Shown here one piece after another: positions 44,921-62,949 of a stretch of 64,000 nucleotides of DNA. Both the position numbers and the translations under genes were made by a program. Within the stretch, counting starts at the first letter, position 1. Each line of letters starts with the position of its first letter. This DNA is from Rhodothermus profundi. GTDB lineage: Bacteria > Bacteroidota > Rhodothermia > Rhodothermales > Rhodothermaceae. Location of the stretch: positions 62,001 to 126,000 of the forward strand of contig NZ_FRAU01000009.1 of assembly GCF_900142415.1 (NCBI RefSeq), given 5' to 3'. The notes beneath the pieces are model-generated. The model saw only the letters and a program-made list of their open reading frames with translations. It did not search any database and was not told where the DNA came from.

Positions 44921-47863
44921 ATGAGAAAACCCAACGTCTTTCGGGATACCATGCGCAGGGGCCTCCTGCTGGGCCTTGTATGGCTGGTTCTGACGGCGCA
45001 GGCGCAGGAGCGCCCACCGGTTCCGCCAACACCCGCTGAGGTTCGTTTGCGGTCGTTTCAGGAGCGGATGGCCCGTCTGGAGCGCTCGCTCGTGCGCAAC
45101 GTGCCATTCCGGAGCATTGGCCCCACGATCATGAGCGGCCGGGTGGTGGACATAGACGTTAACCCGGACAACCCGACCGAATTCTATGTGGCCTATGCCT
45201 CGGGAGGGCTCTGGAAGACGGAAAACAATGGAATTTCCTTTCGGCCGCTCTTCGAGCGCGAGGCAACCATGACGATGGGGGACATTGCGGTGGACTGGCA
45301 GCGCGGGATTATCTGGGTGGGGACCGGCGAAAGCAACTCCAGCCGTTCTTCGTACGCTGGCACCGGCGTGTATCGCTCGACAGACGGTGGGCGCACCTGG
45401 GAACATCTGGGACTGGCCGAAACGCACCACATTGGTCGTATCGTACTGCATCCCGATGATCCCAACACGGTCTGGGTAGCTGCCGTGGGGCACCTGTACT
45501 CCCCTAACCCGGAACGAGGGGTCTACAAAACAACCGATGGGGGACGCACCTGGCGCCGCGTGCTCTACGTGGATGAAAATACAGGGGCTATCGACCTGGT
45601 GATCGACCCGACTAATCCGGACGTGCTCTATGCAGCGATGTGGCACCGAGAGCGGCGCGCCTGGAACTTTGTCGAGGCCGGTCCCGGCTCCGGCATCTAC
45701 AAATCGACGGACGGTGGCGAGACCTGGCAACGCCTCAACGTAGAAGGCAGCGGATTCCCAACTGGCGAAGGTGTTGGGCGCATCGGACTGGCCCTTTATC
45801 CGGAGAATCCGCAGATCCTCTATGCGTTGCTCGATAATCAGTACCATCGCCCCGAAGAAAAAAAGGAAAAGCGCGCGCTGACCAAAGAGGACTTCCTGGA
45901 AATGCGCCGGGAAGATTTTCTGGCGCTGTCAGACGACTCGCTGGAAGCGTTTCTTCGGGAGCATAACTTCCCGCGCATCTATACAGCCCAGAAGGTTAAA
46001 GCTATGGTGCGGCGCGGAGAGATTGAGCCGCGCGCGCTTTACGATTACCTGACCGACGCGAACCGAGAGCTGTTCGAAACACCAGTCATTGGTGCCGAAG
46101 TTTATCGCTCAGACGACGGAGGACGTACCTGGCGCCGCACGCACGAGGCGTACCTGGACAACGTGTACTTCTCCTACGGCTACTACTTTGGCCAAATTCG
46201 GGTCGACCCCAGTGATCCAGATCATGTCTATATCTTGGGCGTGCCCATTCTGGTCTCTGAAGACGGCGGACGCACCTGGCGCTCCATCAACGAGGAGAAC
46301 GTGCACGTGGATCACCATGCCCTCTGGATCAATCCCATGCGACCCGGACATCTGGTCAATGGCAACGACGGCGGCGTGAACCTGACCTATGATAATGGAA
46401 AGACGTGGTTTAAGGCCAACACGCCACCGGTAGGGCAGTTCTACTCGGTAGCGGTTGACAGCGCTTTTCCTTATAACGTTTATGGGGGGTTGCAGGACAA
46501 CGGCGTCTGGGTAGGGCCCAGCACCTACACGTTCAGTTATGAATGGTATGCCGAGGGACGTTATCCGTACGAGCGCTTGCTGGGCGGCGACGGCATGCAG
46601 GTGCAGGTTGATCCGCGCACGAATGATATCGTCTACACGGGCTTCCAGTTCGGTAATTACTTCCGAATTGAGCGCAAAACAGGACGGCGCATTTCGATCA
46701 AGCCCCGTCACAAACTGGGCGAAACGCCGCTGCGGTTCAACTGGGAAACACCTATCTTTCTCTCGCGCCACCACCCCGACATTCTATATCTGGGCTCAAA
46801 CAAGCTGCATCGATCCCTGAACCGAGGGGACGACTGGGAAACCATCTCAGGCGATCTGACGCGCGGCGGTCGCAAAGGGGACGTCCCCTACGGCACGCTC
46901 ACCACCATTGCAGAGTCGGAGCTCCGGTTTGGGCTCATCTATGTGGGTAGTGATGACGGCCTAGTACACGTAACCCGGGATGGCGGCGTTACCTGGACCC
47001 GCATCTCGGACGATCTCCCTCAGCATCTCTGGGTGAGCCACGTGGAGCCCTCGCAGCATGTGGAAAGCCGGGTCTATGTGGCGCTCAACGGGTATCGATG
47101 GGACGATTTCACCCCGTATCTCTATCGCTCAGAAGATTACGGCCAGACCTGGACGCGCATTGGAACGGACCTGCCCTACGAGCCGATTAACGTCGTGCGC
47201 GAAGACCCTTACAATCCAGACATCCTCTACGTAGGCACCGATGGGGGGCTCTACGTCTCACTCGACCGGGGACGTTCGTTCATGCCCTTTTACGAAGGAT
47301 TGCCCCATGCGCCGGTGCATGATCTGGTCATTCATAAACGGGCTCGTGATCTGGTAGTGGCCACGCATGGTCGCTCGCTTTATGTTGCGGATCTGGAGGA
47401 GATACAGCAACTTACGCCGGAGCTTTTGCGCCAGCCGCTCCACGTGTTTGCCATCGATACGCTGCGGCACAATCCAACCTGGGGGCGTCGGCGGGCGGTC
47501 TGGATGGAACCAGATACGCCTGTGGTTCGGATCCCGTACTATAGTCGAGAAGCGGGTCTGGTAACCATTCGGATCCTGACAGAGGATACCCTGCTTCTGG
47601 CTACTCGGGTAGACACGGCTGAGGTCGGTCTTAACTATCCCGTCTATGACCTGACCATTGACACGGCACAGGTGGCAGCCTTCAATGCCCGACGCGATGC
47701 GAAAGCGCAGGTAAAGGCAGCCGACAATGGGCGCTACTACCTCCCACCGGGCACCTACACGGTAGAGCTGGTACGGAGTGGGGCTGTTGCGCGCGGAACG
47801 CTGGTAGTTCGGGCTGGGGATCGCTCCCGGTTTTCGTCTCGTTTTGAACCTTACCGGGAATAA
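44921..47863 (+). CDS. Secreted sortilin/VPS10-type beta-propeller protein
   Basis: The 980-residue protein has a signal peptide (LLLGLVWLVLTAQA) and many Asp-box hairpins of the type STDGGRTW, spread over about residues 85-790. Together these form one or two large propellers of the VPS10/BNR kind. A Lys/Glu-rich insert lies near residues 300-390. The end (about 870-980) is a beta-sandwich segment. Related proteins are annotated as glycosyl-hydrolase-like, but I see no catalytic motif, so binding or peptidase-accessory function is equally likely. ATG 44951 is an alternative start. It has its own terminator. Confidence 0.85.
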   Translation: MRKPNVFRDTMRRGLLLGLVWLVLTAQAQERPPVPPTPAEVRLRSFQERMARLERSLVRNVPFRSIGPTIMSGRVVDIDVNPDNPTEFYVAYASGGLWKTENNGISFRPLFEREATMTMGDIAVDWQRGIIWVGTGESNSSRSSYAGTGVYRSTDGGRTWEHLGLAETHHIGRIVLHPDDPNTVWVAAVGHLYSPNPERGVYKTTDGGRTWRRVLYVDENTGAIDLVIDPTNPDVLYAAMWHRERRAWNFVEAGPGSGIYKSTDGGETWQRLNVEGSGFPTGEGVGRIGLALYPENPQILYALLDNQYHRPEEKKEKRALTKEDFLEMRREDFLALSDDSLEAFLREHNFPRIYTAQKVKAMVRRGEIEPRALYDYLTDANRELFETPVIGAEVYRSDDGGRTWRRTHEAYLDNVYFSYGYYFGQIRVDPSDPDHVYILGVPILVSEDGGRTWRSINEENVHVDHHALWINPMRPGHLVNGNDGGVNLTYDNGKTWFKANTPPVGQFYSVAVDSAFPYNVYGGLQDNGVWVGPSTYTFSYEWYAEGRYPYERLLGGDGMQVQVDPRTNDIVYTGFQFGNYFRIERKTGRRISIKPRHKLGETPLRFNWETPIFLSRHHPDILYLGSNKLHRSLNRGDDWETISGDLTRGGRKGDVPYGTLTTIAESELRFGLIYVGSDDGLVHVTRDGGVTWTRISDDLPQHLWVSHVEPSQHVESRVYVALNGYRWDDFTPYLYRSEDYGQTWTRIGTDLPYEPINVVREDPYNPDILYVGTDGGLYVSLDRGRSFMPFYEGLPHAPVHDLVIHKRARDLVVATHGRSLYVADLEEIQQLTPELLRQPLHVFAIDTLRHNPTWGRRRAVWMEPDTPVVRIPYYSREAGLVTIRILTEDTLLLATRVDTAEVGLNYPVYDLTIDTAQVAAFNARRDAKAQVKAADNGRYYLPPGTYTVELVRSGAVARGTLVVRAGDRSRFSSRFEPYRE

Positions 47864-47886
47864 AGGCAGTTGCGGCTGGCTCGGAA

Positions 47887-47918
47887 GGGCGCTCCAGTGT
47901 TCTGGAGCGCCCTTTTTT
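47887..47918 (+). terminator. Intrinsic terminator of the VPS10-type gene
   Basis: An 11-bp perfect stem, GGGCGCTCCAG / CTGGAGCGCCC, has loop TGTT and is followed by six T. Confidence 0.95.
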
Positions 47919-48158
47919 GCTGGAGATACCGTTGCGTGGTGAGCCGCGGGGGGTGTTCGGTTATCTGGGACACCTTTTGCGCGAAAAGAAAAGCGCTCCG
48001 CCTTGCATCCTGTTTATAAGGAGCACATCTTCTCTGTCAAGCGGGCGTTTCATCCTGAATGATCAAACCTCCGGGTAGGAACGGAAAACGTTCGGACCTT
48101 ATCTCCGGAGAAAAGGCGCGCAGCGTTTAGGCTGCTGGCGTGATTTGCCGGCGCGAGG
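47919..48158. other. Intergenic region between convergent genes
   Basis: About 240 bases hold no gene, promoter or clear terminator for the leftward propeller gene. I see nothing specific in it. Confidence 0.4.
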
Positions 48159-49259
48159 CTACCGCTTCGGGCGAAGTCGTAGCCGGGCCTTTTCGATAAC
48201 CGGCAAATCCTCCTGCCACCGCAACAGATAAAACGTGTCCCTGTCCGGTTCTTTCCACAGGATGTCGTACGGAGGCGACTGAAGCTCGGCATAACCCAGA
48301 TACTGGCCCCGCCCATCCCAGATCTCCAGAAAACCAATCGGCGGATCATGCTGCTGGTCTATACTGAAATGCCCCCACCCGCCATTGGCCAGCGCAAAGA
48401 CGCCCAGGCTGCGACGATGAATGCGCAGGGCAAGGCGCCCATACGGACCGCTGAAAAAGGACACGTTGTTTTTTTCCGAAGGCGGCAGGTCCCAGGGAGC
48501 TGTGCCGTCTGGCAGTTTGGTGTAGGCCGATTTGCCGGGGTGGAGGCCGGTAAGCTGCGTTGCCTGCCACTGGTCACGGTGGCGTTCCAGGCGGAAGAGT
48601 ACGCCTTCATAGAGCCAGGGCGCGGCCATGAGGACGCCCTCACGATAGGCCACCCGAATGGCGCTCCGAAATGTTTGCATGGCGTAGAGGGGATCCTCGG
48701 GCGACCAGAAAAGCGAAGCGCGGGCCAGGCAGGAAGCCTGGCTAAGCCGAAACGCGCTATTGGTGAGAAAAAGAATGCAATCGTCTTTTCGGGTTCGATG
48801 ACGCCCCACAAGCAGGAGGGAATCCGCCGAAAGCGGCAGCACCTGCCGTATCATCAGGGGCGGACGAGGCCGAGTGTGGAACGTTGTGCGGGCCGCATCT
48901 GCATAGATTGTGATGCGGCCGTTGATGGGATCGTTTACGTACAGCCGATTGTTTGCATCGACAAAAAACAGGCTGATCGATTCGAATTCCCCAGGTCCCT
49001 GTCCTTTGCGCCCGATGTATTTGACGAAGCGTCCGTTTGCATCAAAGACCCGCAGACGCGTGTCGCCATAGTCGTGGATGTACACATACCCCTGCCGGTC
49101 CGTAATCAGATGCTCTGGGAAGCGAAAGAAGTGGGGCTTCGTTTCTTGGGTTCCTACTGTCCATTCCGTGGAGAACGAGGCGGTCCAGGTCTGCGCCAGA
49201 CAATAGGATGGTGGCAAAGCAACAAAGAGTATTGCCATAGAAATGGCTTTGGGCAACAT
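48159..49259 (-). CDS. Exported 6-bladed beta-propeller protein
   Basis: The 366-residue product has a signal peptide (AISMAILFVALPPSYCLAQ) followed by NHL/6-bladed-propeller strands: HLITDRQGYVYIHDYGDTRL, RVFDANGRFVKYIGRKGQGPGEF and LFFVDANNRLYVNDP. The GxGPGEF turn is a hallmark of this Bacteroidota family. Function is unknown; ligand binding at the surface is likely. The ATG at 49259 starts the signal peptide; the frame runs on 14 codons. Two decayed relatives lie immediately upstream. Confidence 0.82.
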   Translation of the reverse strand: MLPKAISMAILFVALPPSYCLAQTWTASFSTEWTVGTQETKPHFFRFPEHLITDRQGYVYIHDYGDTRLRVFDANGRFVKYIGRKGQGPGEFESISLFFVDANNRLYVNDPINGRITIYADAARTTFHTRPRPPLMIRQVLPLSADSLLLVGRHRTRKDDCILFLTNSAFRLSQASCLARASLFWSPEDPLYAMQTFRSAIRVAYREGVLMAAPWLYEGVLFRLERHRDQWQATQLTGLHPGKSAYTKLPDGTAPWDLPPSEKNNVSFFSGPYGRLALRIHRRSLGVFALANGGWGHFSIDQQHDPPIGFLEIWDGRGQYLGYAELQSPPYDILWKEPDRDTFYLLRWQEDLPVIEKARLRLRPKR

Positions 49260-49270
49260 GGTAAACTTAT

Positions 49271-49405
49271 TCAGGTTGTGAATAGGGGGCAATCGCCCCA
49301 TGTGTCTAGATCAACATAGCAGTACGGTCTTCCATCAAAGACAAACTGATAGCTTGAAACTCCACCGGCATCGAACAGCTCCGCAGCAATTAGGTGTGTA
49401 GGAGA
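49271..49405 (-). pseudogene. Startless small open frame, possible peptide-gene remnant
   Basis: A frame of about 44 codons ends in TGA just before the propeller gene and reads ELFDAGGVSSYQFVFDG followed by RPYCYVDLDTWGDCPLFTT. It has two Cys and looks protein-like, but there is no ATG, GTG or TTG start and it is cut off by a stop at 49406. It may be the tail of a small exported peptide gene broken by the same events as the neighbouring pseudogenes. Confidence 0.3.
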
Positions 49406-49770
49406 TTATGGTTGTCCATCAAAAGGTAATCGATAACGAACCACCTCTTGGAGGCCATCGGGGTCATTCCTGATGCCCCAGGCCTGTCCCTGCTGCACCA
49501 CTTCCAGATTAACGGAGCCTTCCAGAACAATCTGGCGTTGGTCTTTTTTGGAAACGACCAAATACACGGCCTGGTCTGTGACTTCTGGTCCCTGTTGCAG
49601 CCGGAGCCACACGCGTCGCTGGTCGTCCAGCAGCAGATCGTCGGTATAGGGCCAGTAATTGCGCTGGGGGCGAGGATAGCAAGAGATTTGTACCTCGGGG
49701 GAGCCAGCCGCCGCATCCGGTCCACGGCCTGCTGCCACTGCGCCTGCGTAAACGGGAGGCGTTGCGTGAT
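49406..49770 (-). pseudogene. Decayed 6-bladed propeller gene, C-terminal remnant with frameshift
   Basis: One frame ends with NYWPYTDDLLLDDQRRVWLR, then GQAWGIRNDPDGLQEVVRYRLP, the usual C-terminal blade of a 6-bladed propeller family. Just upstream, near 49670-49690, the similarity moves to another frame reading RLPFTQAQWQQAVDRMRRL. So at least one frameshift separates the two. No propeller core or signal peptide follows further upstream; the sequence up to about 50040 is unrecognised. The C-terminal text closely parallels the remnant at 50102-50567. Confidence 0.65.
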
Positions 49771-50101
49771 CCAAAAGAGAAGGTGGATCCAACGCTGGCG
49801 TATTCCTCGGTTTCCCAGGCACATAGAATAGAAGGTCTGAAAAACTGACGCTGGGGACAAAAAATGGCTCAGTAAGCCCAGCACGACTATGGGCAGGATT
49901 GCGGGCCAAGAGATTCCCTGCTTCGTAGCACCTCTCCTCTGAGCTTGGCAGTTCGCACCCGATGGGCCTCGGGCCGGCCACCGAAGGGGCGGGCCAGACG
50001 ACCGGCCGCGCACCCGGAAGTAACACACATTGTCAAGCACCTGAGCGATTTATGTCAAATATGGAGTGGCGGAGGGAACAATCGCTGTCTGAAAAAAGGG
50101 T

Positions 50102-50567
50102 TCATTGTGACGGGAGACGATAGCGTACCACGGAGGTCAAACCATCCGAATCAACCTGAATGCCCCATGCGTAACCGTGATGGATCGTTTTTAATTCGAC
50201 GGCTCCCTCAAAGACAACAAATCCAAGTTTTTCAGTCCAGTAAATCGTTCGATGAGGCGTCTGCTTCCCGGATTCAATCCGCACCCAGATACGTCCCTGA
50301 GCATCCATGAGTAACGCATTCACATATGGCCAGTGTGTGCGTTTCGGTTGCTTTTGGAGCTTAAGTGGATATCCCGGAGGAATTACGTCCGGATGAATCA
50401 GTGGCCAAAGCAATGACGCGACCGAAATGTTCAGGCGGAAGAATAAGGTCCGGGGACAGGTACAGCGTGTCCTGTCCCCGGACCGCACCTCCCAATCCTA
50501 ACCACAGGCAGAGTGTCAGAATCCCTCTCTTCCAGGGCCTCCTCGCTGTTGCGAATCTCGCTACCAT
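50102..50567 (-). pseudogene. Decayed 6-bladed propeller gene, internally deleted
   Basis: The 5' part (50567 to about 50385) encodes a signal peptide and first blade: ILTLCLWLGLGGAVRGQ, DTLYLSPDLILPPEHFGRV, LATDSSG. Without a gap, another frame continues with LIHPDVIPPGYPLKL, HWPYVNALLMDAQGRIWVRI and AWGIQVDSDGLTSVVRYRLP, the last blade. The middle of the propeller, perhaps 250 codons, is missing and the two ends are out of frame. The gene is dead as read, unless a fusion peptide is made. Confidence 0.7.
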
Positions 50568-50579
50568 AGGCTTTGCGGT

Positions 50580-50840
50580 TCAGGAAGCACGGTCTGCCTG
50601 GCGCTGCTGCCGGCGGGTATGCACCAGATAGAAAAAGGCCAGCGTAAAGAAGGCCAGGACAAAGCCCAGATGTTCAGTTGCCTGGGCCAGGAAGGCTGCC
50701 AGCACCATCAGGCCGATGACGGCCCAGTAGAGGCTGTAGGCCACCCAGTCCGGCAACTGTTGATAGACCCGGCGAAAGGGGAGAAAGAGTAAAAAGATGC
50801 TCAGGATCAGCAGGATCGGTAACCAATCTTGAGGCTTCAT
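50580..50840 (-). CDS. Small membrane protein A, unknown family
   Basis: The 86-residue product has three hydrophobic segments (LPILLILSIFLLFLPF; SLYWAVIGLMVLAAFLAQA; GFVLAFFTLAFFYLV) and a basic tail HTRRQQRQ. It resembles the 82-residue neighbour in helix order and in the polar break after the second helix. No family is recognised. It lies 25 bases after that neighbour on the same strand. Confidence 0.6.
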   Translation of the reverse strand: MKPQDWLPILLILSIFLLFLPFRRVYQQLPDWVAYSLYWAVIGLMVLAAFLAQATEHLGFVLAFFTLAFFYLVHTRRQQRQADRAS

Positions 50841-50865
50841 GGGACCGTCTCCTTTTGTTAAAGGT

Positions 50866-51114
50866 TCAGCTTTGATCTGAAAATGCTTGGAATGTGCGAT
50901 ACCTCTTCAGATATCGTACGCCTGCTCCCAGAGCAATAGTGGCAAGAAATAGAGAAAAATATTTATTCTGTTCCTCCATGAAGGCAACAGCCAGAAAGAA
51001 CAGCGCCAGTCCGCCCATGATGAGCAAAGCAAGGAGCGGCGGCATCCTTTTCCATGTAAATGTCAATGGGTAGAGCAAAAGAATCAGCAGCAAAGGCAAG
51101 ATTGTTGTAATCAT
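50866..51114 (-). CDS. Small membrane protein B, likely paralogue of A
   Basis: The 82-residue product has hydrophobic segments ILPLLLILLLYPLTF, LLALLIMGGLALFFLAVAF and YFSLFLATIALGAGV, then a basic end KRYRT. The layout matches the 86-residue protein downstream, including a charged EEQNKY break after helix two where the other has AQATEH. A plausible promoter (51174-51202) and two palindromes precede it. Function unknown. Confidence 0.6.
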   Translation of the reverse strand: MITTILPLLLILLLYPLTFTWKRMPPLLALLIMGGLALFFLAVAFMEEQNKYFSLFLATIALGAGVRYLKRYRTFQAFSDQS

Positions 51115-51130
51115 GGTTACAAGCTACCGT

Positions 51131-51144
51131 TGTCAATATTGACA
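51131..51144. promoter_or_regulatory. 14-bp perfect palindrome, candidate operator
   Basis: TGTCAATATTGACA is a perfect palindrome 17 bases ahead of the 82-residue gene and about 30 bases downstream of the candidate -10. Its size and symmetry fit a dimeric repressor site. Confidence 0.5.
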
Positions 51145-51173
51145 GACAGAACCATCCCTTCCTTCACAGAAGG

Positions 51174-51202
51174 AGCATAATGTCAGATACGCACAAGGCC
51201 AA
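51174..51202 (-). promoter_or_regulatory. Candidate promoter of the small membrane protein pair
   Basis: On the minus strand TTGGCC and TATGCT are 17 bases apart. It lies between the palindromes at 51131-51144 and 51231-51246. Confidence 0.4.
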
Positions 51203-51230
51203 TATATAACTGGACCTGCCGTGGTACAAA

Positions 51231-51246
51231 CCAGTAACGCTACTGG
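51231..51246. promoter_or_regulatory. Inverted repeat upstream of the candidate promoter
   Basis: CCAGTA-ACGC-TACTGG is a perfect 6-bp inverted repeat with a 4-base spacer, about 30 bases upstream of the candidate -35 of the small membrane gene pair. It could bind an activator. Confidence 0.35.
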
Positions 51247-51457
51247 ATGTTCGACCCAGCCACAGCAGTGAGTTCAGGATTCTGTTGCCCGCAAAGTGAT
51301 GGGCTGCCTACGCCTCCGGCCTTTAAGCCACAGGCAGGGAAAGAGCGGATTCCCTGCTACCACGCGCAGCGGATCGTCGGGAAAAACACTGAGACCACGC
51401 CATGCAGCTTGCCGCCTGGTTCGGTGGGATCGACAGATGAGGGCGTTGATGCTGCTG

Positions 51458-61600: not shown

Positions 61601-62949
61601 AAGTCGGTGCCATTGGCAGGCACATAAAACTGACGAATCGCCCGGATGGCAGTAGGGTCACCCGAAATGCGCCGTGCTGTTTCGACAATGCGCATCAGTT
61701 GCTCCTGGGAGAGCGGCTTATCGATGGCGCTTACCTCATAGGCAAACCCGTAGCGGCTAAAATCCCGGTGGCTTGATTGCAGGTTGCTGGCCCCGGCTTC
61801 GTAGATGGCGTCGCTGATTGCTTTTTTTGTTCCTCGCGCATCGCTATGCACGACGCTGAGCACCCAGTATGGTGGTTCGGCTTCGACGCCAATCACTTGT
61901 CCTGGACCAAACACCGTGTCGCGCACGGTGCCGTACTTATTGAACAGATGGGCCGTGCCGGCTACGTAGGCCGCAATGCGCGGCTGAGCTTCCTGCGTTG
62001 CTGCGCCGATGTGGGGCGTGCAGACAATCTCTGGAATGCCGGCATACGGGTTGTGCCAGGTGTCGTCCTTGCTGGCAGGTTCACTGGGGTAGACATCGAC
62101 CGCGGCTGCCTGCACATGTCCCTCCTGAACCGCTCGGATCAGGTCTTCCGGTTTATGGATAAAGCCTCGGGCTGCATTGATAAAGATGCGGGGGCTATTG
62201 GGTCCGCGTTCTGCTCCGAGCTGGGCGAAGTGTTCGTACGTGATCAGGTTGCGATTGGAGCGGCCGCGGTGATCTTCGGCCGACACATGGACCGTCACAA
62301 AGTCGGCCACGCGGAATGCTTCGGTCAGCGTTCGGCAGGCTGTCCAGCCCAGCGTGCGGCCTACTTCGCGGGCTACTTCACGGTTGTCGTAGAAGTAAAC
62401 CTGCATGCCAAACTTTTCGGCCATCTGGGCCACCTGCTTACCGATATTGCCCAGGCCGATGATGGCGATGGTTTTGCCCTGCAGCTCGTACCGTTTGCGA
62501 TTATCCTTGGTCCATACGTGACGATGAGCTGCTTCATTGGCCTGGAAGACCCGACGCGCCAGGCAGATCATCTCGCCGAAGACCAGCTCAACGACCGAGC
62601 GCGCGTTGCTGATGGGGTCGTTCATCACCATGACCCCTTCCCGTGCGCAGGCTTCCTTGTCTACTGAGTCGTCTCCAATGCAGCAGAGAATGACAGCGGC
62701 CAGGTTTTCCGAGGCCTGCAGCACGCGCTCGTCGACAAGAAAGCGGCTGCGCTTAAAAATTAGATCATGCTGCCCTTCCTTCAGGCGCTCAATGACGGCC
62801 TCGGGCTGTTGCACGACGGCATCCGGTAGCCGTTCGGGTTCAATGCCCTGAGCGCGCAGGTAATCATCCAGGCTGGGATCGGGGTGCTCCAGAATGAGCG
62901 CCTTTTTGAACTGATCGTTGAGGAAGCGGACGCCATCAATTTTGGCCAT
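61597..62949 (-). CDS. serA: D-3-phosphoglycerate dehydrogenase-like 2-hydroxyacid dehydrogenase
   Basis: The 450-residue protein has the NAD site IIGLGNIGKQV and catalytic Arg in INAARGF. VDVYPSEPAS carries the catalytic Glu and CTPHIGAATQEAQ the catalytic His. A C-terminal tail (about 365-450) looks ACT-like and could bind serine. The first step of serine synthesis is the likely reaction, but other D-2-hydroxyacids are possible. SerB and SerC are not in the window. It converges on the GWxTD gene. Confidence 0.85.
   Translation of the reverse strand: MAKIDGVRFLNDQFKKALILEHPDPSLDDYLRAQGIEPERLPDAVVQQPEAVIERLKEGQHDLIFKRSRFLVDERVLQASENLAAVILCCIGDDSVDKEACAREGVMVMNDPISNARSVVELVFGEMICLARRVFQANEAAHRHVWTKDNRKRYELQGKTIAIIGLGNIGKQVAQMAEKFGMQVYFYDNREVAREVGRTLGWTACRTLTEAFRVADFVTVHVSAEDHRGRSNRNLITYEHFAQLGAERGPNSPRIFINAARGFIHKPEDLIRAVQEGHVQAAAVDVYPSEPASKDDTWHNPYAGIPEIVCTPHIGAATQEAQPRIAAYVAGTAHLFNKYGTVRDTVFGPGQVIGVEAEPPYWVLSVVHSDARGTKKAISDAIYEAGASNLQSSHRDFSRYGFAYEVSAIDKPLSQEQLMRIVETARRISGDPTAIRAIRQFYVPANGTDF

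Follow-up and report, generated by a model that had tools for sequence, protein, structure and literature searches.

Phase variation through promoter repeats is best known in host-adapted pathogens, and small secreted peptides of the NVEALA type adjoin propeller genes in Bacteroidota. Repeats in the promoter spacer switch hif in Haemophilus influenzae and alter the transcription of porA in Neisseria meningitidis (PMC3899988). Bacteroidota promoters carry a −33 TTTG and a −7 TAnnTTTG element (PMC7366714), and the TTGAC and TAnnT elements of the cassettes described here, assigned by consensus, resemble them. A search of the literature returned no paper on DUF5128 or NVEALA, nor one pertinent to the Rhodothermus cassette family or its phase variation.

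The window, i.e., the whole 64,000 nt analyzed, is positions 62001–126000 of contig C9 of Rhodothermus profundi (G000, a 3.14-Mb draft genome in 18 contigs). It was compared with the other members of a set of seven Rhodothermus genomes (G000–G006) and with 107 other genomes of the order. We think it likely that positions 48159–51264 hold a degenerating copy of an array of secreted-protein cassettes that can be exchanged, a reading that includes putative switching by TG tracts and putative matching of peptides with propellers. An earlier note on this DNA was right about the decay but missed the peptide, the leader and the TG promoter that surround it. On the minus strand the order is lipoprotein tail, two small membrane proteins, remnant 2, promoter and leader, followed by a dead peptide gene, remnant 1 (49799–49419), a peptide scrap and the intact propeller gene P (49259–48159):

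48159–49259, minus: P, intact 366-aa secreted six-bladed propeller with signal peptide (PF17170, 53.6 bits)
48179–48725, minus: 3′ half of P; identity to paralogue D (contig C1) 94.5%, with several 60-bp blocks at 100%
48728–48944, minus: replaced core segment of P, 57% GC, from the comparison with D
49274–49405, minus: scrap of another small Cys peptide, SPTHLIAAELFDAGGVSSYQFVFDGRPYCYVDLDTWGDCPLFTT, located between P and remnant 1; no start codon; read from the sequence
49419–49799, minus: remnant 1, C-terminal part of an A-type propeller (A residues 236–362, blades 5–6), by paralogue match
49792–49799, minus: deletion junction of remnant 1, imperfect repeat GCCAGCGT/GCCAACGC, fusing the peptide gene to propeller codon ∼236
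49800–49926, minus: dead pepA peptide gene, start codon ACG rather than ATG, 3′ half deleted
49924–50018, minus: decayed copy of the conserved leader motif (R1) before remnant 1 (89.9 bits, E 1.2e-22)
50019–50036, minus: promoter spacer TTGACAA(TG)3T, the shortest of all copies (TTG–TA gap 11)
50102–50383, minus: remnant 2, C-terminal part (blades 5–6), 85% nt identity to G005:C95
50386–50567, minus: remnant 2, signal peptide and first ∼56 residues, 84% nt identity to G005:C38
50580–50840, minus: 86-aa small membrane protein (MKPQD), lipoprotein-cassette member
50866–51114, minus: 82-aa small membrane protein (MITTI), lipoprotein-cassette member
51136–51264, minus: tail of a 186-aa lipoprotein gene, its 5′ end and leader absent in the window

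That two propeller remnants lie beside an intact gene, as the earlier note had it, is borne out by the PF17170 match of P, by the tblastn matches of the tails and by the full-length relatives. The tails match propellers with E = 1e-60 and 7e-18, so that the relatedness is not due to chance. In an AlphaFold2 model of the full-length paralogue A (pLDDT 82), strand order gives six blades and both tails map to blades 5–6; the tails are propeller tails as proposed, but the predicted structure makes each of them two blades rather than the last one only. The predicted fold of A matches NHL and Bacteroides propellers, the solved relatives by fold being B. fragilis BF0058 (4raa) and a DUF4221 member (3s9j), and the predicted model of P itself is weak across residues 159–263. 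Like the known PF17170 (DUF5128) propellers, P, B, C and D score above the gathering cut-off of 22.9 bits and A is modeled with six blades; unlike them, the A and E types fall below it (16.6 and 16.0 bits), and the Rhodothermus genes come with Cys peptides and stand behind a TG promoter. PF17170 matches number 15 in G000, 14 in G004, 25 in G005 and 26 in G006, and 0, 1 and 3 in G001, G002 and G003.

The tail of remnant 1 is 92–93% identical at the nucleotide level to gene A (363 aa; L023:5673-6764, contig C1 of the same genome), and the stretch that precedes it is 82–83% identical to the leader and peptide gene of A. Relative to L023, 789 bp are missing at the junction, where the ends join at an imperfect GCCA.CG. 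repeat. As the earlier note stated, the remnant is frameshifted, by a one-base deletion at about 49680–49698, and the stop codon of A has also been lost. The signal-peptide-like stretch upstream is not part of the propeller; it comes from a separate gene for a small secreted peptide, dead in the window. Full-length relatives are A (L023) and A′ (L029, L030); equivalents exist in G000 itself and in G004/G006, with G004 keeping the order A then P.

Remnant 2 joins an N-terminal ORF (50361–50567) to a tail ORF in another frame (50102–50488), so the signal peptide does run into the tail out of frame as described before. The tail comprises the last ∼93 residues of a propeller, and the match of the N-terminal part to G005:C38 continues upstream to 51234. 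Longer in-frame pieces on either side of the junction are found in G005, on separate contigs, the full-length relative being split in that draft assembly.

Both deletions are clean and lie between imperfect repeats of 8–10 bp, a junction microhomology from which, together with the alignments, remnants 1 and 2 are evidently deletion derivatives of full-length six-bladed-propeller genes, formed via short repeats. Together with the full-length equivalents in G000 and G004/G006 and the longer pieces in G005, the clean deletions also uphold the earlier proposal that tandem copies have been lost, and the comparison with other Rhodothermus genomes finds intact or longer copies in the relatives. Substitutions in the tails are mostly silent, with dN/dS of 0.021/0.183 and 0.077/0.448 (ratios about 0.11 and 0.17), which argues that selection constrained the propeller genes until a short time ago. 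The short ORFs are open over 128 and 206 aa, which could suggest functional small proteins in place of remnants, but this is hardly credible: the tail frame of remnant 2 has no signal peptide and starts inside the N-terminal part, out of frame with it; remnant 1 lacks one base as well as its start and its stop; and the relatives carry full-length genes.

Decay reaches as far as about 51264, in the tail of the lipoprotein gene, a copy of which in G005 (C182) has its own leader. Probably the decay also takes in the peptide scrap at 49274–49405, a tentative assignment with no homologue among the loci compared. The sortilin-like and M23 genes that flank the site in the window are not adjacent in those relatives where both were placed. 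Two deletion pseudogenes that have also lost start codon and frame are what would be seen if redundant tandem duplicates were simply being lost, with exchange and switching of no biological importance; we think this unlikely, for reasons that begin with the intact gene P.

P has an orthologue at L030:8059-9159 (70% aa identity) and a paralogue, D, in its own genome at L023:9758-10876 (76% aa identity). Compared with each other, P on C9 and D on C1 are 89–97% identical over the first ∼120 bp, then 62–88%, only 28–57% in the core, and 95–100% over most of the 3′ half. Quartet sites place the core of P with G004 and the AT-rich core of D with G005, and one 60-bp island at which P and D are 83% identical splits them in the same way. 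When the informative sites were shuffled, the observed split was reached in 0 of 2000 permutations. These comparisons support P and D as mosaics formed by recombination between full-length paralogues, with the ends homogenized and the core replaced. A replaced core disfavors plain loss of redundant duplicates as the whole explanation.

The D core (L023:10100-10310) has a GC content of 28% within a genome of ∼60% GC, looks unrelated to the P core and is common to G005; an import from outside the genus is possible. Elsewhere in G000, the ORF at L138:4058-5134 (contig C6) is 77% identical over residues 106–225 to the N-terminal part of propeller E while its ends differ, and is possibly another chimera.

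Conserved ends, a replaced core and exchange between paralogues are shared with the mosaic surface-protein families of the pilE and vls type, whereas in Rhodothermus the partners in the exchange are two full-length genes, each at its own locus, and no silent donor array is seen. The earlier note had suggested a cassette system in which core blades are swapped. Swapping is supported between the full-length genes P and D, but not with the fragments as donors: the tail of remnant 1 lies at a dS of 0.18 from A, i.e., no recent donation is seen. A system of the pilE/vlsE kind, with truncated remnants donating tail segments to an expressed copy, would account for tails that retain frame and low dN/dS and for the near-identical 3′ halves of P and D. 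We nevertheless regard it as very improbable, since exchange is found only between two full-length genes, remnant 1 has diverged from A, and the remnants keep the conserved blades 5–6 and lack the core, which is the part that is swapped.

Exchange between full-length genes, our preferred reading, can be set beside the cassette content of a conserved chromosomal site. The trpE–ccmF interval of G000 contains A, B, C and D together with an E interrupted by a nonsense mutation; that of G003 contains C, then B with a frameshift (B-psi), then F, and those of G001 and G002 are empty. In G006, where the site is split over contigs, a pepB cassette lies towards trpE, and a P tail with pepA-A lies towards ccmF; G004–G006 are drafts with contig breaks at the cassette repeats, and the order of cassettes in G005 and G006 is partly uncertain. 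G004 has a leader-pepA-A-P-C array, located beside thrC and not between trpE and ccmF. Cassette content at this conserved site thus varies between species and is absent in some, and the same site holding different cassettes per species is again at odds with the simple loss of duplicates.

A typical cassette consists of TTGAC-(TG)n-TAnnT, a leader of ∼95 nt with a Shine–Dalgarno sequence, a secreted Cys peptide of ∼65–100 aa and a secreted six-bladed propeller. The leader (95–96 nt) is present in five of the seven Rhodothermus genomes (G000 and four others) and in none of the 107 other genomes of the order. Intact leaders end in a Shine–Dalgarno sequence and the start codon (ATG) of a small, cysteine-containing secreted peptide, after which the propeller follows; the pairs behind the leader are pepA-A, pepB-B, pepC-C, pepE-E and pepF-F. 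Other copies precede either a lipoprotein gene together with those of two small membrane proteins, or a Gly-rich, hydrophobic peptide accompanied by a DUF5687 permease. One such Gly-rich peptide, at L035:2646-2951, has a bacteriocin-like look and is followed by its DUF5687 permease at L035:1145-2698.

Many propellers that lack the leader also have a small Cys peptide upstream of them; with automatic filtering, a candidate turned up for about 36 of 104 propeller ORFs, a count in which a few are doubtful and some true ones are missed. From gene order only, we infer that peptide and propeller are partners. Glu is the last residue of most of the small peptides that precede propellers, and often the ending is Pro-Glu, which could be a feature of the peptide or an effect of an overlapping ribosome-binding sequence. 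The arrangement is like that of NVEALA-type peptides in that a gene for a small secreted peptide lies directly upstream of a propeller, but unlike them none of five Rhodothermus peptides tested matches Pfam at E ≤ 0.5, and none has a meaningful NCBIfam match, on which grounds an NVEALA identity was rejected for these five. A PADLOC search of seven proteins for anti-phage defence gave no match.

An Rfam scan of 47800–51300 at E ≤ 1 gave no relevant match for the leader, a sub-threshold microRNA match being taken as chance. A hairpin between GGGGUGCG and CGCACCCC at the 5′ end of the leader, proposed by eye, was rejected because G004 does not preserve its 5′ side and because RNAalifold favors pairing with a downstream GGGUGCG; two-sided covariation in the RNAalifold alignment is weak. 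About 30 bp upstream of TTGACA, most leader copies (e.g., L023:6885-6964) have a near-palindrome CTGAA..TTCAG, altered in G003 and G004, that is possibly a regulator site.

In the cassette promoters a (TG)n tract lies between TTGAC and TA(nnT). The seven genomes contain 19 distinct TG tracts of at least six units (three in G003, four in G004, five in G005 and seven in G006, none in G000–G002). Each of the 19 begins 0–6 nt beyond TTGAC and, wherever the sequence continues, has a TA at its 3′ end, the tract on C191 being cut off by the contig end. The reversed pattern, used as a control, occurs 0 times across the seven genomes, and the combination of TTGAC with a TG tract is absent from the other genomes of the order that were searched. 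In 0.82 Mb of loci, a sample biased by having been picked around propellers, tracts of at least five units number 15 for TG and two for all other dinucleotides together. Such an exclusive association with one kind of promoter also tells against mere attrition of redundant duplicates.

Tract length, as read from the assemblies, varies. One orthologous locus has (TG)6 in G006:C53 (L303:3695-3716) and (TG)13 in G005:C75 (L304:3445-3475) with the same flanks, a difference between species, and three closely similar paralogous promoters in G006 have n = 8, 10 and 12. Over all copies the TTG–TA spacing ranges from 11 nt, in the dead copy of the window, to 31 nt. So wide a range could mean that the tracts, instead of being phase switches, are elements for recombination or structure, within a promoter region that is constitutive and can cope with different spacings. 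We find this rather unlikely, though it carries some weight, because TG tracts of at least six units are found nowhere else in the genomes of the genus, tract length differs at an orthologous locus, and repeats in the promoter spacer act as switches in hif and alter porA transcription (PMC3899988). By analogy, the length differences suggest phase variation of the cassette promoters. As in the (TA)n of hifA/hifB and the poly-G of porA, a simple repeat lies between promoter elements and its length varies, here between copies and species; unlike those systems, Rhodothermus has (TG)n, promoter elements of the Bacteroidota −33/−7 type and many dispersed cassettes with a shared leader, and its switching is putative. 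In G000 itself no tract exceeds (TG)5, so that switching may have been lost in this genome.

If the tracts do act in this way, slippage of (TG)n would alter the −33/−7 spacing and turn each cassette on or off. Peptide and propeller would act as a matched secreted pair with specificity in the variable core, and recombination together with the loss and gain of cassettes would keep up the diversity. In the window, breakage has affected the promoter with its (TG)3, the start codon and the peptide as well as two propellers, leaving P alone, which is probably silent or reliant on another promoter. The Rhodothermus-only cassettes are probably an undescribed system that switches genes on and off. Tentatively, since the case for it is nearly balanced, we extend this to a genus-specific, phase-variable repertoire of Cys peptides and propellers, switched by (TG)n behind one shared leader, placed at varying sites and diversified by swapping of cores between paralogues. 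If true, a dedicated and genus-limited set of TG-switch promoters in a thermophile that lives free would mean that bet-hedging of this kind is of use in the absence of a host too, perhaps against phages, against predators or against rival strains. The cassettes also offer a concrete, testable lead to function for PF17170, a large and uncharacterized propeller family, and for the small peptides that go with it.

At L296:936-3370 (G005:C92) a TG promoter is followed by a Cys peptide, a propeller with a weak PF17170 match and a redoxin-like protein, which suggests a connection with disulfide chemistry. TTGAC-(TG)n-TAnnT promoters, with n = 6 to 12, also precede another gene present in several copies, whose product (MSAxQKIGLGLLLL..., ∼165 aa) matches nothing in Pfam and which has a conserved upstream sequence of its own (L292:2340-2929, L293, L295, L298, L299 and L301).
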